Positions 5,874 to 22,072 of a stretch of 35,808 nucleotides of DNA are shown here, piece after piece. How positions within the stretch are numbered: position 1 is the stretch's first letter; each line of letters begins with the position of its first letter. The notes beneath the pieces were generated by a model. It ran no database searches. It had not been told where the DNA came from and saw only the letters and a list, made by a program, of their open reading frames with translations. The DNA comes from a virus. The position numbers and the translations under genes were made by a program. The stretch covers positions 1-35,808 of the IMG/VR virus record IMGVR_UViG_3300009604_000029; one strand, written 5' to 3'.

Positions 5874-8357
5874 CTACCCCTCGTAGACCTTCTCCAGATC
5901 TCCCCATCCGTAGCCTCGGTGAACCTCGACGGCGAAGGGGACATCCGTCTCGAATCCCACGTTGTGTGTCTCCTCGATCATGATCTCCTGGGCCTCCTCA
6001 GCGATTTCCTCTGGCACCTGGACTCCAAACCCATCGTGGACATGGGGCCAAGCCATGGGGACATATCCCATTTCTCGAATCCTGTCCATCACTCTTATAT
6101 TGGCGAGGAGGGTCATTACACTGGCGAAGTTCTGAATCGGCGTGTTAACCGCCTGGCGCTCGATCTCGCTGATGTGCCTCTTATCCAGGAACACTGGGAA
6201 CCGTCGCTTATATCCGTAGATACTGGCGACCTCGTGCTCCTTCCTCACCAGTAGCTTCTGATCTCGAATCCATCTGGAGGCCTCTGGCATCTGACGAAGG
6301 AATCGATCACGATATATCTCGGCTTCCTTGACGGTCACTCCCAGCTGAGGAGCCAGGGATTTAGGCATCCTCCCGTAGATGATTCCGAATGCTATCGTCT
6401 TGGCGGCTCGACGCCTAAACGTCCGCTCCTCCTCACTCATGGCATTCAGATCGGCATCTGTTAGCCTGAACAGCTGCTTAGATACCTCACGATGAATGTC
6501 CCCGGCGCAGGCCTCTCGGAGAACCGCGTCTCCGGACAGATGGGCCAGGGCTCGTATCTCAGCCTGGGAGTAGTCTGCGTAGATCACAACATACCCATCG
6601 TCCGCGATGAATATCTTCTTGATTTCCTTCAGCCTCGGCATTCCATGAATGTTGGGATCAGTTGAGGAGAGCCTGCCCGTCCGAGTGCCATGAAGACGAT
6701 ATCGAGGATGGATCCGTCCCTGGCGCATTAATGCCTTATATCCGTGATAGTAGTTCTTCAGCTTAGTCCCGAGGAGCCGGTGCTGCACCATCAGCCGAGG
6801 GAACTCGTCCTGTTGAGCCAACCAGTGGAGCATGTATGTGCTGGTAGATCGAGGCTTCATGTTGGAGAAGACAGCTGATGAGGCCGTTTGCCAGTACTCA
6901 ATGGCCTCCGTGTCCTCGATCATCCGTATCTCTTCCAGGACTTCGCTCTGCGTCAGCACATCTTTCTTGGCCGACATCTGGTTGAGCCCCAGGTCATCGA
7001 AGAGATACTTGGACACCTGCTTGGGGCTGTTGAAGTTAAGGTCACTCGCGCCTGGGTAGGCCCTTAGCTGATCCTCTAGGTCTTGCAGTTCCCCAGCCCA
7101 CCTGGCTCCTAGTTCCTCATGGTACTCCTCATCCACCTTCATTCCAGTCCGCTCCAGATCAATGAAGTGATGCGCGGCTGGTATGAGTATGTCGTCATGA
7201 ACCGAGTCGACTCCGTCCTCTATCATCTCCTCGCGTAGATCCTCGGTCAGCCTATTGGTGAAATCGGCGTCTGCTCCGCAGTACAGGCTGATGTTAGTCC
7301 TGGTCTCGTTGTCATCCCAGTCGTCAAGGCTGAGCTTAAGAGGAGCCTTGCGATCCTCATTCGCGGCCTCGGTATTCAGAGATGACTTAAGGTGAACATC
7401 GTACTCGGGAGCCTTATAGTAGGACGCGGCTACGCGCTTAAGTCCATGGCTTCCCTTTCGCTCATCGAGGCAGTAGTGAGCCAGCATGGTATCCATGGTG
7501 AATCGTGGGAAGATCCCCCTGGAGTTAAGCCACATGACGTCGAATTGGCCATTATGGAATGAGCAGTCGACTCCCGACAGCGCTCGGCCCAGCTGCTCAT
7601 GATTACTCTGATTATCCTCAATCAGAGCTACCCAGTCGAGGATAACCGCCGTCTCCCTCTCCCAGGACATCCCCACACACAGAATATCCCCGGTGTCGGG
7701 GTCTAGACTGGTAGTCTCCAGGTCGATCGAGGTATGGCCCAGCCGCTTAAATCGACGCATTAGGGCATTAAAGCCCCGCTGCGTGTTGATGATTACGTAG
7801 TTGTCGTAGGGAGGCTCCACAATGGGATCCTCCCCGTCTGCTATACGCTTAGCGAAGGCCAGATCCTGATAGAAGTCGATGTACCCGTCCGGCGACCTGA
7901 ATATGCTGGCCGGGTGCAGGGTAGGCAGCACGCCGAACGTGTGACGTCCAATCGTTATTTCTCGGTATATACCTCGCTTCCGCGTGATGCCGGTCTTACC
8001 TCCGAGGATAGCCGCCACACCGAAGTTCCCGAGCGGTACTATAATCTTAGGCTGTGCGTCAATTAGATCAGCCATTAGCCTAGGATTACAGGCGCGGATC
8101 TCCTCGGGAGTGGGATCCCTGTTCTCTGGAGGCCTCCACATCAGCGCATTGTTACGATAGGTGTCTCCCCATTCGACTCCGATGTCCATGAGAGTCTCGC
8201 GGAGTAGCTTACCCGCCTTGCCCACGAATGATTCCCCTCGCTTCTCCTCCTCAGCCCCTAGGGCCTCCCCAATAAGAGCAATATCTGGTCGATGAAGACG
8301 ACCAGACGGGTATGCAGGGCATCCTTTAGATGGGCACTCGTCGCAGCGCGTGGACAT
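5874..8357 (-). CDS. Uracil-DNA glycosylase fused to family A DNA polymerase
   Basis: Replicative polymerase, 827 residues. Residues 1-180 are a family-4-like uracil-DNA glycosylase: GEALGAEEEKRGESFVGKAG is motif A, LHPAS motif B, with cysteines 5, 8, 13 and 90 that could hold part of an Fe-S cluster. Residues 205-375 are a proofreading exonuclease with DLE (212-214), HNGQFD and YCGADAD, all intact. Residues 400-827 are the polymerase: motif A YADYSQAEIRALAH, motif B RRAAKTIAFGIIYG with Arg, Lys, Phe and Tyr in place, and motif C HVHDG. In motif C the Glu usual after His-Asp is Gly (residue 776). A UDG-PolA fusion is known from SPO1-type phages. It is the last gene of the nucleotide operon, read after purA. 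Confidence 0.95.
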   Translation of the reverse strand: MSTRCDECPSKGCPAYPSGRLHRPDIALIGEALGAEEEKRGESFVGKAGKLLRETLMDIGVEWGDTYRNNALMWRPPENRDPTPEEIRACNPRLMADLIDAQPKIIVPLGNFGVAAILGGKTGITRKRGIYREITIGRHTFGVLPTLHPASIFRSPDGYIDFYQDLAFAKRIADGEDPIVEPPYDNYVIINTQRGFNALMRRFKRLGHTSIDLETTSLDPDTGDILCVGMSWERETAVILDWVALIEDNQSNHEQLGRALSGVDCSFHNGQFDVMWLNSRGIFPRFTMDTMLAHYCLDERKGSHGLKRVAASYYKAPEYDVHLKSSLNTEAANEDRKAPLKLSLDDWDDNETRTNISLYCGADADFTNRLTEDLREEMIEDGVDSVHDDILIPAAHHFIDLERTGMKVDEEYHEELGARWAGELQDLEDQLRAYPGASDLNFNSPKQVSKYLFDDLGLNQMSAKKDVLTQSEVLEEIRMIEDTEAIEYWQTASSAVFSNMKPRSTSTYMLHWLAQQDEFPRLMVQHRLLGTKLKNYYHGYKALMRQGRIHPRYRLHGTRTGRLSSTDPNIHGMPRLKEIKKIFIADDGYVVIYADYSQAEIRALAHLSGDAVLREACAGDIHREVSKQLFRLTDADLNAMSEEERTFRRRAAKTIAFGIIYGRMPKSLAPQLGVTVKEAEIYRDRFLRQMPEASRWIRDQKLLVRKEHEVASIYGYKRRFPVFLDKRHISEIERQAVNTPIQNFASVMTLLANIRVMDRIREMGYVPMAWPHVHDGFGVQVPEEIAEEAQEIMIEETHNVGFETDVPFAVEVHRGYGWGDLEKVYEG

Positions 8358-8395: not shown

Positions 8396-9616
8396 TCACC
8401 CTCTTAAGTCTATTATATCTCGACGCTTAGGCCCCGTCGATATAAGCTTCACCGGGATTCCAGTTATATCCTCCACCATCTTTATGAACTCCCTGGCCCT
8501 CTTGTGAAGATCTTCCCAGTACTGACATCCCGTAGTCTGATGCCATCCCTTCATCATGAAGTACTTGGGTGAAGCCCCGGTATACTTCATGGTGGATCCC
8601 ACGACCTCATCCCCCTCCTCATATGCGATGCAGATGGGAACCTCGCGCTGTTCATCGAGGATATCTATTCGGGTGAGAGCCAGGTAGTCCGGCCTGCAAA
8701 TCCGATTGGCATACTTGATTGCAGGTAAATCGAGGAACCCCATTCGCCTGGGCCTTCCAGTTGTCGAACCGTATTCCAGCCCGGACTCTCGCAGTTGATC
8801 TCCGATATCCTGTGGCATCTCTGTCGGCAGAGGCCCCTCTCCTATTCTGGTGGAGTAGACCTTCATGACACCCACAACCTCATCAATTCTCCTGGGATCG
8901 ACTCCGAGCCCTGTCCCCACTGCTGCTGGAATGCAGCTAGATGAGGTGACATACGGATAGTGTCCATGATCGATGTCGAGCATCACCCCGTGGGCTCCCA
9001 TGAGAAGGAGGTTTAGGCGCTGGCTAATCGCCTCCTCTATGTGAGGAAGCGGATCCTTTATTTCACAGCGAGATAGTAGATCCGCTCGCAACTCATATAC
9101 CTTGGCTGTCGCTCGGTCTGCTCCCATTCGAGGCATTCTGGCAGCGATTTCGCGTGGCTCCCCATTCATCAATTCTTCAAATGAAGTCCCTGTGCGGAGC
9201 ATCTTGTCTGAATAGGCTGGCCCTACCCCTCTCCTGGTAGTTCCTATGGGATGCCCTGAGGTCTCCTCCCGATAGGTATCACGATAGATTTGATCGTAGG
9301 AGATGATGTGGGCCTTGGGATCCACGATGACGTGAACATTGGGGCTCATCTGATTGAGACTGTCTATCTCATTCACCAGCACATCGGGATCGATCACCAT
9401 CCCTCGTCCGAGGACGCTGATCATCCCAGTATGGAGTGAGCTCGCAGGGAGAAGGTGGAACGCCACTCGATTTCCATTGGGAGCCTCGACAGTATGACCC
9501 GCATTATTCCCTCCGTTGAACCGAGCGGATAGGTAGGCCTCCTGTCCCAGGTAGTCCACTATCTTACCCTTCCCCTCATCTCCCCACTGGAGTCCGATCA
9601 CTACTCGTACGGTCAT
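8396..9616 (-). CDS. purA: Adenylosuccinate synthetase
   Basis: Joins IMP and aspartate with GTP to make adenylosuccinate, the first committed step to AMP. From ATG 9616 the protein has 406 residues, near the bacterial length of about 430 and longer than archaeal PurA or phage PurZ (about 340). The start is set by GGAGGAAG upstream and a four-base overlap with dpdA. The GTP and active-site loop GLQWGDEGKGK keeps the catalytic Asp. GTTRRGVGPAYSDK, GVMLDIDHGHYPYVTSS and the aspartate loop GSTTGRPRRMG keep the Thr and Arg residues that bind aspartate. LTRIDILD replaces the usual TKxD guanine motif, so Lys has become Arg. PurZ enzymes of aminoadenine phages, as I recall, lack that Asp, so IMP is the expected substrate. 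Confidence 0.93.
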   Translation of the reverse strand: MTVRVVIGLQWGDEGKGKIVDYLGQEAYLSARFNGGNNAGHTVEAPNGNRVAFHLLPASSLHTGMISVLGRGMVIDPDVLVNEIDSLNQMSPNVHVIVDPKAHIISYDQIYRDTYREETSGHPIGTTRRGVGPAYSDKMLRTGTSFEELMNGEPREIAARMPRMGADRATAKVYELRADLLSRCEIKDPLPHIEEAISQRLNLLLMGAHGVMLDIDHGHYPYVTSSSCIPAAVGTGLGVDPRRIDEVVGVMKVYSTRIGEGPLPTEMPQDIGDQLRESGLEYGSTTGRPRRMGFLDLPAIKYANRICRPDYLALTRIDILDEQREVPICIAYEEGDEVVGSTMKYTGASPKYFMMKGWHQTTGCQYWEDLHKRAREFIKMVEDITGIPVKLISTGPKRRDIIDLRG

Positions 9617-10422
9617 AGATTCTTCCTCCACCAATGGCCTATGGAGCCTGAATTCTCCTCCTGATCATCATCTTCCTTCCCATCAAAAACCACCTGCGGC
9701 AGGCACATCATCCTCCAGTATTCCCGGTTCTCCTGGATCAGATGGGGATCTATCTCAGATCCGTCAAGGAAATCAAATGAGGAATCCGGCCTCGGCTTAC
9801 CAGAGGCCATCCTGACTCCCCCGGCTGAGTAAAAGGCTGCGACTCCGCTGTCCACTCCTCTTACTCGACCTGGGAACTGACTAGAAATGTCAGCGATTTC
9901 CCTTGGATCTCCTGGGCACCCGAGGAGATGGATGGGAATGAAGTGATCCTGTGCGTCTATAAGCTCGACGGCCTTAGCCCGAGGCATGTAGGAGGTGATG
10001 AACTTCGAGACTCCAATGGCACTAATCCTGGGGATCCAGGTGAGCATTTCTTCCATACACTTCACCCAGTCATCCTGATCACGTCCCTGCGGAACCACCA
10101 TTGATCTAAGCCCTGATATGTCAGCTTGATATACCCCATGACTCGACCATTTCACTGTCTCCCATCGATTCCCAAGAAAGTCCGGACAGATTAGCTCAGT
10201 AGCTCGGATCGTCTTGGCTAAGCTGATTAGTTCCTCAATTCGCATGGGAATTCCCGTCTCCACTACCCCATTGTCCATGATGACGTGGTCACCCCGCGCC
10301 GACTTGTCGATGAAGAACTGCCGGTATTCCTCATTGTAAAGGAGATGAGCCAGCGCCATATGATAATCGTTGTCCCGCTCGAAGCCCATGCGCCGGAGAG
10401 GAAGTATGGTGGCGATCTTCAT
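9613..10422 (-). CDS. dpdA: DpdA-like DNA transglycosylase (TGT paralogue) for 7-deazaguanine insertion
   Basis: Family related to tRNA-guanine transglycosylase that swaps guanine in DNA for a 7-deazaguanine base. 269 residues from ATG 10422, chosen for the ATGA overlap with the gene before it and a GGGAG site upstream. Phage DpdA features are a TIM-barrel start KIATILPLRRMGF, HVIMDNGVVE with the active-site Asp in the DNG, LICPDFLGNRW, MVVPQGRDQDDW, ISAIGVSKF, HLLGCPGDPREIA and RVRGVDSG. It has no tRNA-binding tail. It lies in one operon with queD, queE and folE, which supports a DNA-modification role. Which base it inserts cannot be read from sequence; see the finding on the missing QueC. 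Confidence 0.85.
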   Translation of the reverse strand: MKIATILPLRRMGFERDNDYHMALAHLLYNEEYRQFFIDKSARGDHVIMDNGVVETGIPMRIEELISLAKTIRATELICPDFLGNRWETVKWSSHGVYQADISGLRSMVVPQGRDQDDWVKCMEEMLTWIPRISAIGVSKFITSYMPRAKAVELIDAQDHFIPIHLLGCPGDPREIADISSQFPGRVRGVDSGVAAFYSAGGVRMASGKPRPDSSFDFLDGSEIDPHLIQENREYWRMMCLPQVVFDGKEDDDQEENSGSIGHWWRKNL

Positions 10423-10835
10423 TTCTTTAGCTCCCATCTCTGTAGTAAAGAGCAAGTCATCACTCGCTGAGGATCGTATGGCCTTCGATGAATGGGAGTC
10501 CCTAGATCCTTCCAGGCCCTTCTGGGAACGAAGAACTCAATCCTTTCGTCGCTTGGAGAACTGAACAGGATTCGATTGTATATGTTTATATCCAGGACAC
10601 AATCCTGGATGGCCCACTGCATTTCTCCGTCTAGCTTATGACGATCATCCTTAACGATGTGAAGATATGGTTTCCTCTGACGTGGGAATCGAACCGTTCG
10701 GCACAGCTTGCCGATCTTCATGGGATCTCGAAAATCATACTCCATGTACAGATGATCTCCATGCCTTAACTCCAGACTGTAGCCATTCCCCCTGAATAAG
10801 GTTAGTGCTTCCGTGCTTATTATAGCAGATACCAT
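10419..10835 (-). CDS. Hypothetical protein coupled to dpdA
   Basis: A 138-residue soluble basic protein that I do not recognise. It looks beta-rich: LTLFRGNGYSLELRHGDHLY, KPYLHIVKDDRHKL, EIQWAIQDCV-type strands and RIEFFVPRRAW. There is no metal motif and no membrane segment. The stop overlaps the dpdA start in an ATGA, so the two are translationally coupled, and it follows the DHH gene by eight bases. Coupling suggests a partner of DpdA or a DNA-targeting factor, but that is inference from position alone. The start ATG at 10835 follows TTTAGGAGG. Confidence 0.65.
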   Translation of the reverse strand: MVSAIISTEALTLFRGNGYSLELRHGDHLYMEYDFRDPMKIGKLCRTVRFPRQRKPYLHIVKDDRHKLDGEMQWAIQDCVLDINIYNRILFSSPSDERIEFFVPRRAWKDLGTPIHRRPYDPQRVMTCSLLQRWELKK

Positions 10836-11624: not shown

Positions 11625-13361
11625 TTACACCTCGCACACTTCGCAGTATTCCCCATTCTCCAGTACCCCTGGTCGACAGCCATTCACGTAAACCGTAATG
11701 CCCTTGCAGCCCAGGTCATAGGCTAGCATGTAGGCCTGACTGACGTCCTCCCAGGTGGAGCCTCGGGGTAGATTAATGGTCTTGGATGCCGAGTTATCCA
11801 GGAACTCCTGAACCACACCCTGCATCTTTATGTGGTGTTCCACTGGGATCTCAAGCGCCGTGACCAGGTGATCCCCCTCACCCTCAAAGAGAGGATGAGT
11901 GAACTGAGTCTCGCCTGTGGCGTCTCTCCTCGTATACTCCCTGGAGAACACAGGCTCGATCCCGGAGGATACTCCGGCCAGAATGGATGTCGTCCCTGTC
12001 GGTGCCTGACTGGTCAGGGTTAGGTTGCGGATCCCGTGCTCTAGGATCTTCTTATGTATATATTGAGGCATCCGCTTAATGAATGTCCCCTGGATGAACT
12101 CATTCCTCTGGAGACCTGGGGCTGATCCCTCGTTACTCGCAAGATCCACACTAGCCATGTAGGCGGTATCCCGTATATACTCATACACGGCTCGTGCGTA
12201 GTCGAGGGATTCCTCAGATCCATACTTCATCCTGTTTAGGATAAGGAGATCGGCCAGTCCCATCGTTCCAAGGCCGATTCGTCTCACCTGCCGCTGCACA
12301 TCACCTATATGCTGATTGATATCAGGGCTCTTGTCGATCACTCGATTTAACATCTTAACCGCAGTGACCACGGCATCGCGCATCCCAAACCAGTCAAGCT
12401 GGTTGAGCTTGGGATCCCAGAAGGCAGGCAGGTTGATGGCCCCTAGGTTGCATGATCCACCATTTGGGAGAATCTGCTCTCCGCATGGATTAGTGGATAT
12501 CAGGGTCTCCATGTACCTCGTGTTAGCCGTTCGATTGGCTCTCTCAAGGAAAACCAAGCCGGGATTACCGGTTTGAGAGGCTGACTGGCATAGGTGATCC
12601 CATATCAGCCGAGCAGGCGTGGACTTGTGGATTCTGACCTCACCTCCCCTGAGCATCCATTTATCAATGTCCCCATCCCAGATGGTATTATAGTCAGGAG
12701 ATGAGGTATCTGGGAAAACGGACGACCACATCCCATTAGTCTTTACTTGGTGCATGAATTCATCTGAGACCGCAACGCTGTGATTGGCCCTCAGGAAGCT
12801 AGACTCCGCGAACTCCATAACATCTGGATGCCAGTCGTCGAGAATGTACATGAGAGCCGCCGTCCTCGATCCTCCCTGGCGTATGCTATCCACCATCCGG
12901 TCTGCTCCTCCCATCCAGGAGACGGAGCCTGAGCTGTATCCATTCACTCCTGATATATAGGAGTCCCTCGGTCTCAGAACCGACCAGTTGATACCGACTC
13001 CCCCTCCCCGAGCGGTTATCTCGATCATCTCCGAGACTGTGCTCATGATCCCGGCTCGGCTGTCTGCCCCATGAGTGTCGTGAGCGACGCCGATGACGAA
13101 GCAGTTATAGAACGTGGCCAGCTGAGAGGATCCCACTCCATTGAGAATCCGGCCTGCTGGCACGAACCCGAATCCGCTGAGAGCTCTGAGGAACTCGCGT
13201 CGTTCCGTCCTGCTCGTGGCTAGGCCCGAGGCCACTCGATCCCACATATCCTCTGGGAAGGCCTCAAGAGTATTACCCTCGGCGTCTTTTAGTGCATAGC
13301 GATCCAGGAATACCCTCTCCCGCTGCTCCGTCCACTCCATTACTGAGAATCTATCCGCCAT
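11625..13361 (-). CDS. nrdJ: Class II (adenosylcobalamin-dependent) ribonucleotide reductase
   Basis: Makes deoxyribonucleotides from ribonucleotides using a vitamin B12 radical, so no separate small subunit is needed. 578 residues. Visible are the first redox Cys in LATFYNCFVIG, the loop ARGGGVGINWS, the radical-site motif NPCGEQILPNGGSCNLGAIN (Asn, Cys, Glu and the second redox Cys), APTGTTSILAG, and the C-terminal electron-relay cysteines NGCRPGVLENGEYCEVCEV. The absence of an R2 gene and the short single-chain layout favour class II over class I. It is the largest gene of the nucleotide cluster, beside MazG and DHH genes, and overlaps MazG by 11 bases. Dependence on host cobalamin is implied. 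Confidence 0.93.
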   Translation of the reverse strand: MADRFSVMEWTEQRERVFLDRYALKDAEGNTLEAFPEDMWDRVASGLATSRTERREFLRALSGFGFVPAGRILNGVGSSQLATFYNCFVIGVAHDTHGADSRAGIMSTVSEMIEITARGGGVGINWSVLRPRDSYISGVNGYSSGSVSWMGGADRMVDSIRQGGSRTAALMYILDDWHPDVMEFAESSFLRANHSVAVSDEFMHQVKTNGMWSSVFPDTSSPDYNTIWDGDIDKWMLRGGEVRIHKSTPARLIWDHLCQSASQTGNPGLVFLERANRTANTRYMETLISTNPCGEQILPNGGSCNLGAINLPAFWDPKLNQLDWFGMRDAVVTAVKMLNRVIDKSPDINQHIGDVQRQVRRIGLGTMGLADLLILNRMKYGSEESLDYARAVYEYIRDTAYMASVDLASNEGSAPGLQRNEFIQGTFIKRMPQYIHKKILEHGIRNLTLTSQAPTGTTSILAGVSSGIEPVFSREYTRRDATGETQFTHPLFEGEGDHLVTALEIPVEHHIKMQGVVQEFLDNSASKTINLPRGSTWEDVSQAYMLAYDLGCKGITVYVNGCRPGVLENGEYCEVCEV

Positions 13362-13605
13362 CTCGTGTTCTCCTCTTATTATCTGCGATCATGTGGGCGA
13401 AATTACTAACGTCTCCACATTCGTCTATTATAGCATCAGGATCTCCCGTAGCTAAGGCCTCCTTCAGTTCTTCTATCTCCTGATGCATTCGCATCATCAT
13501 CCACTCGTCGGAATAGTTGACCCAGCCTCCCAGATGATCGTTCTTGCGGAGCTTCTTCTCCATCACCTGGGAGAACCATTTGAGAGATCGCCTAGGCAGG
13601 AACAT
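13351..13605 (-). CDS. MazG-like nucleotide pyrophosphohydrolase
   Basis: Small all-alpha NTP pyrophosphatase, 84 residues, which cuts nucleoside triphosphates to monophosphates. The MazG metal motif is visible as EIEELKEAL followed, after about 10 residues, by IIDECGDVSNFAHMIAD, giving the ExxE...ExxD pattern. Related phage enzymes act on dGTP or dATP, on damaged nucleotides, or on ppGpp; sequence does not decide between these. Beside a deazaguanine pathway and a reductase it could trim the dNTP pool. It overlaps the gene before by 14 bases and the reductase after it by 11, so it is tightly coupled. The N-terminal 25 residues are basic and unassigned. Confidence 0.85.
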   Translation of the reverse strand: MFLPRRSLKWFSQVMEKKLRKNDHLGGWVNYSDEWMMMRMHQEIEELKEALATGDPDAIIDECGDVSNFAHMIADNKRRTRDGG

Positions 13606-14257
13606 GTTCAGGCGTCTCTAGATAGATGACGGGGATTCCGATGGAGTGCGCGTGCTCAATCTCGTTAGCAGTGCTGCTCCCAATATATCCCCCTGGATTC
13701 ACCACATAGATCCAATCGGATGCGTCTATCTTGCGAAGATGCAGTTGATCCAGATGCTCCTTGAGCGACGGCTCCATCTCGATTTTATCGGCATGTCCGA
13801 AGAAGCCCACGGCTAGTACCAGGTGTCCCTCAGAGGTTAGAGTCTGGACGACCTCAATCGTCTCATTCTTGAACTTGGTTGATCCGCACACGGTTACGAT
13901 CTGAGGTTTCACCGGAGTCCGCGTGACTATGGCCTCGCATCCCTCGTCCTCCCGTACCTCCACCTGATCGACCTGATGCAGCGTCTCCAGAATCTCACGT
14001 CCAATGGTCTCGCAGCTGCGTGGGCCTAAGTCAAGAACTCCTCGCTTTCCACCAATCAGCATCAATGATACGGCGATCTCTAGGGAATCTCGTAGATCAT
14101 GAAACTCGATCTCCCTGTCCTCATGCTTCACGGAGGCCCGTGCCGAAATGTGGAATGCGTGCATGTGAGGATGAGATAAGTAGAGTCGATTCTCTGGCGC
14201 TCCAGGCCAGTGGTGCAGGGCATTAAGCTGAGTGGATACCTTAATCTGGGACTTCAT
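13592..14257 (-). CDS. QueD-like T-fold domain fused to nucleoside deoxyribosyltransferase-like domain
   Basis: A 221-residue two-domain protein. Residues 117-215 resemble the nucleoside 2-deoxyribosyltransferase/DUF4406 fold: VTVCGSTKFKNE, VGFFGHADK, LHLRKIDASDWIYVVN and GGYIGSSTANEIEHA. Residues 7-113 match the layout of 6-carboxytetrahydropterin synthase (QueD): a His cluster SHPHMHAFHISA where QueD has CAQFHGHNYK, then EFHDLRDSLEIA like MVMDFGFLKQLW, then SCETIGREIL like the PTAEFLSKSIF helix, then VEVREDEGCEAI like VTVQETEDCSAT. The Cys of QueD is absent, so chemistry may differ. I infer a nucleobase- or pterin-binding module tied to a deoxyribosyl transfer module. It lies between folE and nrdJ and overlaps both neighbours. 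Confidence 0.7.
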   Translation of the reverse strand: MKSQIKVSTQLNALHHWPGAPENRLYLSHPHMHAFHISARASVKHEDREIEFHDLRDSLEIAVSLMLIGGKRGVLDLGPRSCETIGREILETLHQVDQVEVREDEGCEAIVTRTPVKPQIVTVCGSTKFKNETIEVVQTLTSEGHLVLAVGFFGHADKIEMEPSLKEHLDQLHLRKIDASDWIYVVNPGGYIGSSTANEIEHAHSIGIPVIYLETPEHVPA

Positions 14258-14432
14258 CCTGTTTCTCCTTATCTATAACTTCGTCGACTGAGGCTCGGGG
14301 AATTCGCCATTTACTGCCTACCTTGAATCCCCCCTTTATGTGTCCAAGCTTAAGCATCTCCCGGACACTGTAATCGCTCACACGTAGGATCTCGGAGACC
14401 TCCTGAACTGTTAATACCTCTGGGAACACCAT
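14241..14432 (-). CDS. Small excisionase-type helix-turn-helix protein
   Basis: A 63-residue winged-HTH protein of the MerR/excisionase-like HTH_17 class. Its typical layout is LTVQEVSEILRVSDYSVREM, then LGHIKGGFKVGSKWRIPRAS, then a short helix. Such proteins serve as excisionases, transcription regulators or DNA-architectural factors. No integrase is visible, so a regulator of this operon is more likely than an excisionase; this is inference. ATG 14432 follows AGAGGTG. It lies between folE and the QueD-like fusion gene, overlapping the latter by 17 bases. Confidence 0.8.
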   Translation of the reverse strand: MVFPEVLTVQEVSEILRVSDYSVREMLKLGHIKGGFKVGSKWRIPRASVDEVIDKEKQDEVPD

Positions 14433-14442
14433 GCGTTCACCT

Positions 14443-15288
14443 CTATTTCATTAAGAACTCGGCCCGTGCCGCAGGATCGCTCTTGATGATCCCGCTTAGG
14501 AAATTGGTCGTGAGGAAGGCATTCTCCTGCCTGGCCCCTCTGCATATCATGCAGGCATGTCGAGCCGTTATCGACACCCCTACTCCTCTAACATCTCCTC
14601 GTTCGATCACCTGTCCTATTTCCATGGTGAGCCGTTCCTGGATTTGCAGCCGCCTCGCCTTGGCATCTACTAGCCTGGCGAGCTTGGAGATCCCGATGAC
14701 CTTCCCATTGGGTAGATAGCCGATATCTACCGTTCCCCAGAATGGTAACATGTGGTGCTCGCAGGTCGACCAGAAGCCTATTTGCCTCATGATCACCATC
14801 TCGTCCGAGTTCTCGTTCTCGAACCACTTCAGTATCTCTTTTTCCTCACCATAACCGGAGAAGATCTCCCCCCAGGATCGAACGACTCGCTCTGGAGTCT
14901 CCAGCAGCCCATCTCGACTCGGATCGTCTCCAATGAACTGGATAATGCGACGGACATTGTCTTCTAGATCTCCTCCCTCACCCTCCCATGGGAAAACGAT
15001 CCAGGTGCCGAGGATACCCTCTTTAGGTTTATCAACTAGAGCCAAGAACTCTTTATTACCATGTTCACTCATGATACGATCACGTGTGGCTCCGCTATCC
15101 ACGATATCATCCATGATGATCTCAGCATCCTCAGGTCTGTCTACTAGTACCGTTCCCACCTGCGCCGACAGCCCTGCGATTATGGATCCTCCCCTTGGGA
15201 TCCCCCAGACCTTGCTGCCCTTAATGCCCATATTCTTAAGTCGCTTATTGATGTCTGACCAGCTGAGGGATATATGTCCGTTACTCAT
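14443..15288 (-). CDS. folE: Phosphoribosyltransferase-like domain fused to GTP cyclohydrolase I
   Basis: Converts GTP to dihydroneopterin triphosphate, the first step of the 7-deazaguanine pathway. 281 residues. Residues 105-281 are a full cyclohydrolase: DGLLETPERVVRSWGEI, the zinc site STCEHHMLPFWG (176-186), GISKLARLVDAKARRLQIQE and the second zinc Cys region RHACMICRGARQ. Residues 1-95 are a compact phosphoribosyltransferase-like domain with VWGIPRGGSIIAG and the PRPP-binding motif EIIMDDIVDSGATRDRI (55-72). A WIVFPWE linker joins them. The PRTase is shorter than free enzymes but keeps its acidic pair and DSGAT loop, so it may act on a base or sense PRPP. It overlaps queE by four bases (ATGA). 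Confidence 0.92.
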   Translation of the reverse strand: MSNGHISLSWSDINKRLKNMGIKGSKVWGIPRGGSIIAGLSAQVGTVLVDRPEDAEIIMDDIVDSGATRDRIMSEHGNKEFLALVDKPKEGILGTWIVFPWEGEGGDLEDNVRRIIQFIGDDPSRDGLLETPERVVRSWGEIFSGYGEEKEILKWFENENSDEMVIMRQIGFWSTCEHHMLPFWGTVDIGYLPNGKVIGISKLARLVDAKARRLQIQERLTMEIGQVIERGDVRGVGVSITARHACMICRGARQENAFLTTNFLSGIIKSDPAARAEFLMK

Positions 15289-15944
15289 GGTAGTCCTATT
15301 ACCTTGTGTAGTTGGATTGAGAGCTTCCAGCCTGGAAGGTCATATAGTTTATTAATGACTGACTGGGTGCCGATTCCCCTAGTCCGTTCATCGTCATCAT
15401 CATGCGCTATTGGCTGGAGATAGTAGCTCTCCGCGTTGAAGTCACGAAAGGCGTGGGGATTGATCGACGGATTAGGATGCGGATAGAGGAGCTTGAGCGT
15501 ATCGGCCCTGCGGATCACTGTCTGTTCCCATGGGAGCTTGGGTGATATAGTGAGATGATCTATATTGAAATATACATCATCCTTAAACTCCCGAGTTCCA
15601 TTGGACTCGACTGCCACATCGTATTTCACTTGGAGGCTGCTCAGAAGGTTGTAGTCCAGCTGAAGGGACGGCTCTCCTCCGCTAATCCACACCCATTTGA
15701 TCTGATTATCACCCTCTAAATCTCTAATCTGCGACAGGATCTCCTCGATGGTGAGCATCTTGTGGCTAAAGAAATCAGTATCACAAAATGGGCACGTCGA
15801 CTCCTCCCGTGTCTCCGGCCTCCCGTCCCACATGTTGCAGCCGGAGAATCTGAGAAATATACAGGGGACACCCGCCATTTGCCCCTCCCCCTGGATGGTC
15901 GGCCCGAAGATCTCGTGGACTCCGTATTTATGGGTAGGTTGCAC
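15285..15944 (-). CDS. queE: 7-carboxy-7-deazaguanine synthase (radical SAM)
   Basis: Radical SAM enzyme that rearranges 6-carboxytetrahydropterin to 7-carboxy-7-deazaguanine (CDG). 219 residues from a GTG at 15944. The start VQPTHKYGVHEIFGPTIQGE is the usual QueE N terminus. The cluster motif is CX14CX2C, seen as SGCNMWDG and then STCPFCDTD, a variant known in some QueE enzymes in place of CX3CX2C. WVWISGGEPSLQ is the glycine-rich SAM motif, and VAVESNGT and LTISPKLPW follow as in the family. It overlaps queD by 17 bases upstream and folE by four downstream, so the three pathway genes are coupled. Confidence 0.95.
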   Translation of the reverse strand: MQPTHKYGVHEIFGPTIQGEGQMAGVPCIFLRFSGCNMWDGRPETREESTCPFCDTDFFSHKMLTIEEILSQIRDLEGDNQIKWVWISGGEPSLQLDYNLLSSLQVKYDVAVESNGTREFKDDVYFNIDHLTISPKLPWEQTVIRRADTLKLLYPHPNPSINPHAFRDFNAESYYLQPIAHDDDDERTRGIGTQSVINKLYDLPGWKLSIQLHKVIGLP

Positions 15945-16383
15945 TGCAATCCTCCGTCTCCTGCACGGTAACCCGTGCCATGTGGATTCTCCTTAGGGAA
16001 TCGAAGTTCCCAGGACGACCAGCCTGAAGCTCATCCGTACTAGCGTAGATGAGCTCCTCCATTTGATCGAATATGGATTTCGAGAGGAACTCGGCTGTGG
16101 GCCTCCCCTGAGTAACCACAATGCTCTTAGAATCAGTCGCGAATAACTGAGGAAATCGTGGATCCTGATCCCATATAAGGAACTTGTGATCGTAAATGGA
16201 ATCGATCTGCGACCACAGTTGCTTGAGGAATCCGAAGTCCATCACCATGTCCAGATCGTCCAGATCCGATGACTCCACTACCAGGGTCACCTTATAGTTA
16301 TGTCCATGGAACTGAGCGCACTTGCCCTTGTGTCCCCAAATGGTGTGCCCCGCGCTGAAGCTGAAATCCCTAGATATTCTCAT
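15928..16383 (-). CDS. queD: 6-carboxy-5,6,7,8-tetrahydropterin synthase
   Basis: Converts dihydroneopterin triphosphate to 6-carboxytetrahydropterin, the QueE substrate. 151 residues, slightly longer than free-living QueD (about 120). Zinc ligands are His13 (FSAGHTIWG) and His26/His28 (QFHGHNYK), with the catalytic Cys22 in KGKCAQFHGH. IYDHKFLIW holds the catalytic Asp-His pair, PTAEFLSKSIF is the conserved helix, and VTVQETEDCSATY holds the pterin-binding Glu. An insertion around residues 70-95 accounts for the extra length. ATG 16383 follows GTAGGAGG. It is the first of the three deazaguanine genes and follows the helicase gene by nine bases. Confidence 0.95.
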   Translation of the reverse strand: MRISRDFSFSAGHTIWGHKGKCAQFHGHNYKVTLVVESSDLDDLDMVMDFGFLKQLWSQIDSIYDHKFLIWDQDPRFPQLFATDSKSIVVTQGRPTAEFLSKSIFDQMEELIYASTDELQAGRPGNFDSLRRIHMARVTVQETEDCSATYP

Positions 16384-20138: not shown

Positions 20139-21521
20139 TCATGTGAGGGATTTCGCTATATCCCTCCCGGCTACTACTCCAGTTAGAGCCGCTGCTACGA
20201 ATGAGTCCACGTATCCTGTGGCATCCCCCACTATATACAGACCAGGATGCCCGTAGACCTGCCAATTAGCAGTATCGACTGGAGCTCGATATGCGGGATA
20301 TTTCACCTCCGGGCCATAGATTATGGATTCCTCAGGGTCAAATGTGGGTATGGACGCATCGAGTCCTTCCAGGAATCGATGGAATGCCGAGTATAACTCA
20401 GCTGGTAGGGCGCGGCTTATATCTAACCCATCCCTCGCCATGACGTTCGTTCGGTAGGGAGGATGTAGATTCTCAGACGGCTCCTGCTTCATGAAGTCGC
20501 TAACCCGCTGGACTACGGTATGACCCTGCGCAATCTCATTAATGGATCTGGCCACATCCCTCACGTAATCCTGTGGATCCCCCGTGCCCACAGCCTCAGG
20601 CACCATCTTGGCTACCATAGCGAAGTTGCTGCTGTTGCTTCGCTCATTAGGATCAAGGGAGGAGTGACCGTTCACATTACGTATCCCCATCTCCTGATGC
20701 CACTGATTCACCACGAATCCCTGCTGATTGCAGCAGAACGATCTAGTGACGATGAACCCCGTCTGCTGCATCACCTTCCAGTCGTAGAATCGATCAAACA
20801 TGCAGCTGAGGCCGGAGTCCGCCGTCTCTACCCGGAGACCGATACCAGCTGGGCCTGACTTCGTAGACAATCCCAGGTCTTGTATTAGGTTCTCTGACCA
20901 GGTGATCCCCTGGATTCCACTGGCGATTACCACCTTATCGAAGAGAAGTCGCTCGCGTGCCACTGCGTCTCTGCGATTTGAGCTAAAACCTACCCAGGCA
21001 CCGCCCATCTCCTCTGGGAGAGGATCCACGCTCACTGCCTTCGTGAAGAATCTAACGTCGACTCCATCCCGGACGAGGGCCTGTGTCATCCCTATCGAGA
21101 ACCTGCGGATGCCGTCTGATCCCACATGTCTGAGAGGATAGGACGATAGATCCATGTCGTTGTCCGAGAAGTCCTTATCCCCCTGGACAGTCGGCTCATA
21201 CCACACTCCCTCCCCCGCATGTGTGACCACTTCCTTATCTATCTCCCACAGGATGGGCTCAAGAGCTGGATCGAAGATTTCCTCCAGCTGAGTACCCCGC
21301 AGCAGGCTGAATGGGAGCTTGCCGTCCGAGAACCCGCCTGCCCCTCCCTCTCCCTCAAGGACATAGCAGGATCTACAGGAACACGATTGGGTCTCAGGAC
21401 ACCATCGCTCCACCATGGGATGACCCATCTCGACCATCGTTATATTCTTTACCCCAAGGTCGAGCAGCTGCCTAGCGCAGAATGTCCCCGCAGGGCCAGA
21501 TCCGATTATTAGGACGTTCAC
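20139..21521 (-). CDS. FAD-dependent oxidoreductase (COG2509-like)
   Basis: Predicted soluble flavoprotein dehydrogenase, 460 residues. The FAD-binding start is MNVLIIGSGPAGTFCARQLL and the C-terminal FAD site LYIVGDATGYVDSFVAAALT. Between them are a cysteine cluster (CPETQSCSCRSCYVLEGE) and GGAGGFSDGKLPF, features typical of the uncharacterised COG2509 dehydrogenases, where such cysteines might hold a metal. The substrate is unknown. It is encoded between dNMP kinase (four-base overlap) and the SSB-like gene. It is unusual for a phage replication operon, and a redox step in base modification is one possibility. No transmembrane segment is seen. Confidence 0.85.
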   Translation of the reverse strand: MNVLIIGSGPAGTFCARQLLDLGVKNITMVEMGHPMVERWCPETQSCSCRSCYVLEGEGGAGGFSDGKLPFSLLRGTQLEEIFDPALEPILWEIDKEVVTHAGEGVWYEPTVQGDKDFSDNDMDLSSYPLRHVGSDGIRRFSIGMTQALVRDGVDVRFFTKAVSVDPLPEEMGGAWVGFSSNRRDAVARERLLFDKVVIASGIQGITWSENLIQDLGLSTKSGPAGIGLRVETADSGLSCMFDRFYDWKVMQQTGFIVTRSFCCNQQGFVVNQWHQEMGIRNVNGHSSLDPNERSNSSNFAMVAKMVPEAVGTGDPQDYVRDVARSINEIAQGHTVVQRVSDFMKQEPSENLHPPYRTNVMARDGLDISRALPAELYSAFHRFLEGLDASIPTFDPEESIIYGPEVKYPAYRAPVDTANWQVYGHPGLYIVGDATGYVDSFVAAALTGVVAGRDIAKSLT

Positions 21522-22072
21522 AGTTTCTCCTTCTTTAGTTGGGCCTCGACGTCTTTAAGTAGAGCCGGGAGCGATTCCGGTATCTCCGTCAGATCCCCAT
21601 CATTCAGGTATTCCCAGTCAGGTGGATCGGTGAGTCCGTACTCGCTGGAGTGATCAGACTCAATAGACCTGGACTTAGGTCGCAGGATCCCCACAATGCA
21701 GCCTCCCCAGGATCTAATCCCCTCGGCCTCATTGTCATATCGGATGTCGTCCACGACGATGTTGACCATTGGATCATCATACTGATGACCGAGGATTCTC
21801 CTGTGTAGGTGCATCACCCAGGTATCCTCGTGGATGTTTCGAGCCACCTCCGTCCCCAGCATCTGCATCATGAACCGAGGAGAGATGTCGTATCTCGGAT
21901 CGATCTCCTCCTTCAGGTATCCACTGATTTGAGCCGGAGATAGGTCATAGATCTTCGTGAGGATCTCCTTTATGGGATCCGCCAGGCTGAGCTTCACGAA
22001 TCCTCGCTTCACTAGTTCCATGGCTATCGTCGTCTTGCCTGATTGAGCTTGTCCAGTCAGTCCAATTATCAT
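21518..22072 (-). CDS. Deoxynucleoside monophosphate kinase-like P-loop enzyme
   Basis: Phosphorylates dNMPs to dNDPs for phage DNA synthesis. 184 residues. The P-loop is IIGLTGQAQSGKTTIAMELV, followed by FVKLSLADPIKEIL as in dNMP kinases of phage T4/T5 type. SPRFMMQMLGTEVARNIHED is the conserved substrate-site region, with WVMHLHRR after it. IVVDDIRYDNEAEGIRSWGG is the Walker B-like strand and lid region. Length is normal. Phages with unusual bases often need such a kinase with relaxed specificity, which fits this genome. It is coupled by four-base overlaps to genes on both sides. Confidence 0.88.
   Translation of the reverse strand: MIIGLTGQAQSGKTTIAMELVKRGFVKLSLADPIKEILTKIYDLSPAQISGYLKEEIDPRYDISPRFMMQMLGTEVARNIHEDTWVMHLHRRILGHQYDDPMVNIVVDDIRYDNEAEGIRSWGGCIVGILRPKSRSIESDHSSEYGLTDPPDWEYLNDGDLTEIPESLPALLKDVEAQLKKEKL

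Follow-up and report, generated by a model that had tools for sequence, protein, structure and literature searches.

In 2023, Cui and colleagues reportedly found phage DNA to contain 2'-deoxy-7-deazaguanine and 2'-deoxy-7-carboxy-7-deazaguanine, and they predicted a decarboxylase of 7-carboxy-7-deazaguanine (CDG), named DpdL. We know of no fusion of DpdL to a nucleoside 2-deoxyribosyltransferase (NDT) or MazG domain, and in the open-licence literature we found nothing on DpdL. In Z-DNA phages, the NDT-family enzyme DmtZ hydrolyses dAMP and also transfers its deoxyribose 5-phosphate to the modified base; the DmtZ of phage Wayne forms one protein with a dNTP diphosphatase (PMC12884076). For deazaguanine phages, Hutinet et al. 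(2019, PMC6884629) allowed for the existence of 2'-deoxyribosyltransferases that had escaped detection. Here we analyse an entire virus record of 35.8 kb (the window), in which a QueD-like T-fold domain is fused to an NDT-like domain for which DmtZ is the closest precedent.

The fusion gene lies on the minus strand at 13592-14257, exactly where the initial annotation had placed it, and encodes 221 amino acids; the plus strand has many stops. The ribosome-binding site is good (AAGGAG), and the gene overlaps its neighbour on either side. Residues 1-114 (13916-14257) form the T-fold half, assigned from profile matches, alignment and model, and residues 116-221 with the stop codon (13592-13912) form the NDT/DNPH1-type half, assigned from the profile match of a relative, alignment and model. 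Neither half matched a Pfam or NCBIfam model, and sequence searches of the PDB with each half gave no useful match. Since the fusion is also found in unrelated contigs (L174, L205 and L238), an assembly artefact was rejected as its origin; contig L001, which is 100% identical, was left out as an independent instance.

The surrounding minus-strand operon is closely packed, and the majority of its genes overlap. It begins with a primase-like protein, a UvrD-like helicase, a canonical QueD (PTPS; 15928-16383), QueE (CDG synthase; 15285-15944), FolE (GTP cyclohydrolase I, extended at its N-terminus by a phosphoribosyltransferase-like segment; 14443-15288) and a small HTH_17 excisionase-like DNA-binding protein (14241-14432), which separates FolE from the fusion. 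After the fusion come a MazG-like pyrophosphohydrolase of 84 aa (13351-13605), whose gene shares 14 nt with that of the fusion, an NrdJ-type ribonucleotide reductase (11625-13361), a DHH phosphoesterase and a 138-aa protein, and the last part holds a DpdA-like DNA transglycosylase (9613-10455), a PurA-like adenylosuccinate synthetase (8396-9634) and a UDG-PolA fusion. A deoxynucleotide monophosphate kinase (DNMK) is encoded on the same strand at 21518-22072. The placement of the domain pair in a deazaguanine operon thus holds, with FolE, QueD, QueE and a DpdA-like protein all encoded in the window. The DpdA assignment rests on this context, on relatives in the Campylobacter CP21 and Cellulophaga phiST phages (phrog_20335), on a profile comparison with further DpdA-like proteins (E 3e-6 in a single comparison) and on a weak hit to PDB 7ui4, a solved DNA-guanine transglycosylase; a Pfam search with the protein gave no match.

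Several other genes of the window recur elsewhere. The PurA-like gene adjoins the DpdA-like gene here as in L108, L174 and L205, an arrangement conserved in this virus group; it scored 395.7 bits as PurA and 116.8 bits as PurZ (PurZ cut-off 300), and a PurZ-type aminoadenine system was therefore rejected. The UDG-PolA gene (5874-8357) joins a family-4 uracil-DNA glycosylase domain to a family A DNA polymerase, as in L108 and L174. FolE proteins of 282 aa, similar to that of the window, are encoded in L036, L074 and L076. An FAD-dependent oxidoreductase with a PF21688 C-terminal domain lies at 20139-21521, and a related-looking fragment is found at the start of L108.

The T-fold half matched phrog_17812 (115 aa, function unknown) with E 2.8e-14 and the phage QueD family phrog_2389 weakly (E 0.004); profile-profile comparison with phage QueDs gave E 1.2e-5 in a single comparison. 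The full-length model (pLDDT 93.1) had E. coli QueD as its top PDB match (VIA Z 12.6, rmsd 2.4, 107 residues). When modelled alone from a separate N-domain alignment (pLDDT 94.7, pTM 0.86), the T-fold domain took the same fold as in the full-length model, and E. coli QueD was again the best match (Z 12.9, rmsd 2.0). A chance resemblance to QueD was rejected by these fold and profile tests. The T-fold half is QueD-derived, as its description as a QueD-like domain in the initial annotation had implied.

Active-site assignments in both halves were made by sequence position. Across the 91-member T-fold alignment, H15, L27, H31, H33, V43, R48, E51 and C82 are invariant, and S81, E83, E103 and D104 are near-invariant. 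H15, H31 and H33 would occupy the positions of the QueD zinc histidines, and E103 that of the base-binding Glu. The family therefore appears to share with QueD (PTPS family, PF01242) the T-fold, three metal histidines and a base-binding Glu in the last strands, and with the phage QueDs of the same clusters a Cys-Glu motif where helix 2 begins, with S81-C82-E83 corresponding to G-C-E in the QueDs of these same phages. Unlike in QueD, however, the position of the catalytic Cys (the Cys27-type nucleophile, four residues before HxH) is taken by the invariant Leu27, which bears out the proposed loss of this residue, and between helix 1 and helix 2 of the T-fold alignment we found no conserved counterpart of the Asp-His dyad (D65-H66 of phage QueDs). 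Because the catalytic Cys and the Asp-His dyad are lost and a separate canonical QueD is encoded alongside, we also rejected the idea that the T-fold half is a second QueD. Separately, many QueDs of these phages, among them L002:778-1254, L017:1905-2357 and L074:6717-7160, have HGY in place of HGH and Tyr/Phe at the first zinc histidine, and keep the Cys and the Asp-His dyad; their metal site seems altered.

Members of the T-fold family are usually encoded by stand-alone genes of 105-140 aa, and one scan of viral contigs gave at least 582 of them. At least one of FolE, QueD, QueE and DpdA lies near the T-fold gene in 77 of the best 80 loci (FolE in 62, QueD in 49, QueE in 55 and DpdA in 63); in ACP17 and Xanthomonas X1, the gene lies immediately before QueE and near a DpdA-like gene. 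Full-length QueC was found in 0 of 46 records with the T-fold family (9 named phages and 37 contigs), where two divergent PP-loop ATPases gave partial scores and one further protein reads as an NAD synthetase. It was found in 13 of 14 QueE phages picked down the ranking of a QueE search, all 14 of which lack the T-fold family. Fisher's exact test for this exclusion gave p 2.7e-12, a value that overstates its strength because the records are partly related and not all phylogenetically independent. QueC was likewise not found in L108, L174, L205 and L001, all of which are fragments.

QueE is encoded in 8 of the 9 named T-fold phages and a separate QueD in most, so the T-fold family replaces neither. 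With QueE and QueD present and QueC missing, the pathway would run to CDG, followed by the T-fold protein in QueC's place. The T-fold half therefore most likely processes the QueE product CDG instead of QueC, and it is probably a CDG decarboxylase that gives 7-deazaguanine, which would be the simplest chemistry. The initial annotation had overlooked this widespread, stand-alone family of QueC-less pathways, whose occurrence suggests a step in the making of the base; its proposal of proofreading or removal of the wrong base is not supported. The T-fold family would hold the same QueC-less position in the pathway as the predicted decarboxylase DpdL, and the identity of the two is a lead.

Another idea, which we regard as unlikely, is that the T-fold half is non-catalytic or converts the 7-position in some other way, for example on an imported base, so that the link to QueC is indirect. 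In Faecalibacterium phage Roos, a T-fold gene is found with a DpdA-like gene and a YhhQ-like transporter, and QueD, QueE and QueC were not found; Roos is thus a poor fit to CDG as the substrate unless CDG is supplied by the host. Other loci, too, have a YhhQ-like transporter instead of the CDG pathway. However, the strict metal histidines together with E103, E51, R48 and S81-C82-E83 resemble an active site, and the exclusion of QueC is very strong. Hutinet et al. (2019, PMC6884629) noted that the QueC substrate may be the modification in phage Bipper, which is without QueC; the T-fold family was not found in Bipper, and neighbours of QueE/DpdA in Bipper, Nicole72 and BSTP8 were rejected by alignment as divergent members.

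The neighbourhoods of T-fold genes held further features. The three Roos genes are consecutive (L007:6001-7899) and form a minimal import-based set. Two phages with a T-fold gene, Vibrio phage D479 (L187) and L188, encode PP-loop ATPases that are QueC-like but divergent and have a cysteine-rich C-terminus, which counts against a T-fold protein in QueC's place. ParB-like proteins repeatedly occur just before the DpdA-like and T-fold genes (L014:642-1412, L019:282-1103, L036:746-1279 and L007:5303-6004). In many QueC-less phages, a putative glycosyltransferase-like gene of 330-400 aa lies beside the T-fold gene and DpdA (L002:3969-4997, L004:3452-4612, L009:4849-5910, L020:4806-5909, L021:8983-10197, L036:2476-3477, L080:2604-3629 and L088:8281-9441). 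A PHROGs search with two of these proteins gave no match; such neighbours may hint at glycosylated 7-deazaguanine or CDG.

As for the C-terminal half, its relative in L109 matched phrog_355 ("nucleoside 2-deoxyribosyltransferase") with E 2.1e-5, and the model of residues 116-221 matched the NDT 6evs (Z 11.2), DNPH1 8rqd (Z 11.0) and MilB 4jem (Z 9.9). TIR domains, which have the same superfold, scored nearly equally (SARM1, Z 9.9), so that the function is not set by the fold alone. Across 43 aligned members, the CGST loop (124-127), Tyr191, Ser195-Thr196 and Glu199 are invariant, and Glu199, in the helix after the GxST loop, would be at the position of the nucleophile. The predicted NDT-superfamily fold and this Glu agree with the NDT-like character first assigned to the domain. 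The same two features liken it to the nucleotide N-hydrolases DNPH1/RCL and MilB, and its CGST loop presumably resembles their CGS-type loop. In contrast to these enzymes, the position of the superfamily Tyr is Thr122, as in every member aligned, and the domain, at about 100 aa, is shorter than the known enzymes. The position of the Asp/Asn partner is D181 in most members and His in L205 and vir519.

Because of Thr122 in place of Tyr, and of His in place of Asp in L205, glycosidic activity is uncertain. This half could be an inactive glycosidase that lost its catalytic Tyr and now binds a nucleotide or base for regulation or as a scaffold, and the nearly equal fold match of TIR domains fits such a role. 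We nevertheless doubt it, since a decayed site would hardly keep Glu199, Tyr191, Ser195-Thr196 and the CGST loop unchanged in more than 40 diverse members, as is seen here. MilB, too, is reported to be without the superfamily Tyr, which counts against the loss of activity.

If the domain is active, its substrate is likelier to be a deoxynucleotide than a deoxynucleoside, as judged from residue positions. Gly193, six residues before Glu199, would stand where NDTs have the Asp/Asn that binds the free 5'-hydroxyl, and by the criterion used for DmtZ this favours nucleotides (PMC12884076). The initial annotation had suggested a protein that handles a deoxynucleoside of the modified base; a deoxynucleotide version of this idea is plausible, whereas Gly193 and the nucleotide-type resemblance speak against the deoxynucleoside. 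Salvage by a true nucleoside 2'-deoxyribosyltransferase, acting on free deoxynucleosides of degraded host DNA, consequently seems improbable to us: NDT structures do match the model, as 6evs does, but Gly193 and the partnership with MazG described below indicate nucleotides. Phages and plasmids commonly encode relatives of the domain (about 100 aa), mostly as single genes with no deazaguanine genes nearby; the domain therefore has a general role elsewhere, which counts against the pathway proposed below. In the Methanofastidiosa archaeal virus vir519 (L011:4992-6313), an NDT-like gene lies directly upstream of DpdA (PF23859), and no T-fold gene is present.

A third module, which the initial annotation had overlooked, is MazG. 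The motif ExxE...ExxD is intact in the window protein, and an alignment of four proteins shows E43, E46, E62 and D65 in every one. Five viral genomes combine the T-fold, NDT-like and MazG-like modules, and in all five a DpdA-like gene lies downstream of them; PurA follows the same order in L108, L174 and L205. In the window and in L238, the T-fold and NDT-like domains are fused and MazG is separate; in L108, the T-fold gene stands alone and the NDT-like domain is fused to MazG; in L174 and L205, all three form a single ORF of 312 and 333 aa, respectively. The NDT-like domain is thus fused to MazG in three related genomes (L108, L174 and L205). The L238 fusion is 47% identical to the window protein, and its contig is binned as Candidatus Dojkabacteria. 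The same domain pair accordingly recurs in other dpdA viruses (L174, L205 and L238, with the modules also in L108), as the initial annotation had anticipated, and the repeated fusion of the same three parts in differing arrangements argues for their joint action.

Based on these findings, we tentatively propose that two steps of a 7-deazaguanine DNA-modification pathway without QueC are coupled in the fusion protein, where the T-fold half would decarboxylate CDG and the NDT-like half would act on dGMP; we consider this quite possible, if still somewhat doubtful. FolE, QueD and QueE would make CDG, and the T-fold half would strip its carboxylate to give 7-deazaguanine. MazG would convert dGTP to dGMP, and the NDT-like half may cleave the glycosidic bond of dGMP, with the outcome that either guanine is released or the deoxyribose 5-phosphate is passed to the 7-deazaguanine made next door. 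In the latter case, the 7-deaza-dGMP could then be phosphorylated by the phage dNMP kinase (21518-22072). DpdA would still be the main, post-replicative route. Given DpdA, the virus could do without a nucleotide route, which would supplement DpdA as DmtZ supplements PurZ.

The release of guanine alone is the basis of an alternative that we find somewhat unlikely: The pair of MazG and the NDT-like domain would destroy dGTP, via dGMP, to guanine and deoxyribose 5-phosphate without any base transfer, while the T-fold half makes its base independently and the fusion couples expression or location alone. The hydrolases DNPH1 and MilB are among the best fold matches, the MazG motif is complete, and comparable pairs deplete dATP in Z-phages (PMC12884076). 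On the other hand, a loss of dGTP would leave replication starved if G is incorporated before DpdA acts, and the fusion to a base-making domain in 4 of 5 genomes would be left unexplained.

Passage of the sugar to the new base would instead make T-fold, NDT-like and MazG modules a channelled enzyme that produces 7-deaza-dGMP directly, a pre-replicative route beside DpdA and the guanine counterpart of DmtZ. We offer this extension of the coupled pathway as a possibility that is itself rather doubtful. Like DmtZ, the C-terminal half is a phage NDT-superfamily domain without the 5'-hydroxyl Asp, with a dNTP diphosphatase as partner or fusion, in a base-modified phage (PMC12884076). DmtZ differs in that it serves a dAMP/2-aminoadenine system, has Tyr6, which is essential there, as well as Asn77, has a Dut-like partner rather than MazG and carries no base-making domain. 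The MazG module resembles MazG-like dNTP pyrophosphohydrolases, including MazZ of Z-phages, in its ExxE...ExxD motif and as a small dNTPase-type protein beside a modified-base pathway; unlike the known MazG-like proteins, MazZ included, that of the window's group overlaps or fuses with an NDT-like gene.

Each part belongs to, or derives from, a known family. What is new, as far as the open-licence literature that we checked is concerned, is how the parts are combined, that this combination recurs with MazG, and that QueC is excluded. The T-NDT/MazG module is a concrete candidate for the kind of 2'-deoxyribosyltransferase that could not be ruled out in deazaguanine phages (PMC6884629), and its recurrence suggests a second, predicted viral way to put modified G into DNA. 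The near-perfect exclusion of QueC also gives a lead to the function of the large phage family phrog_17812. In genomes, the T-fold gene may serve as an easy marker of phages whose DNA is expected to carry 7-deazaguanine or CDG and not preQ0 or archaeosine.
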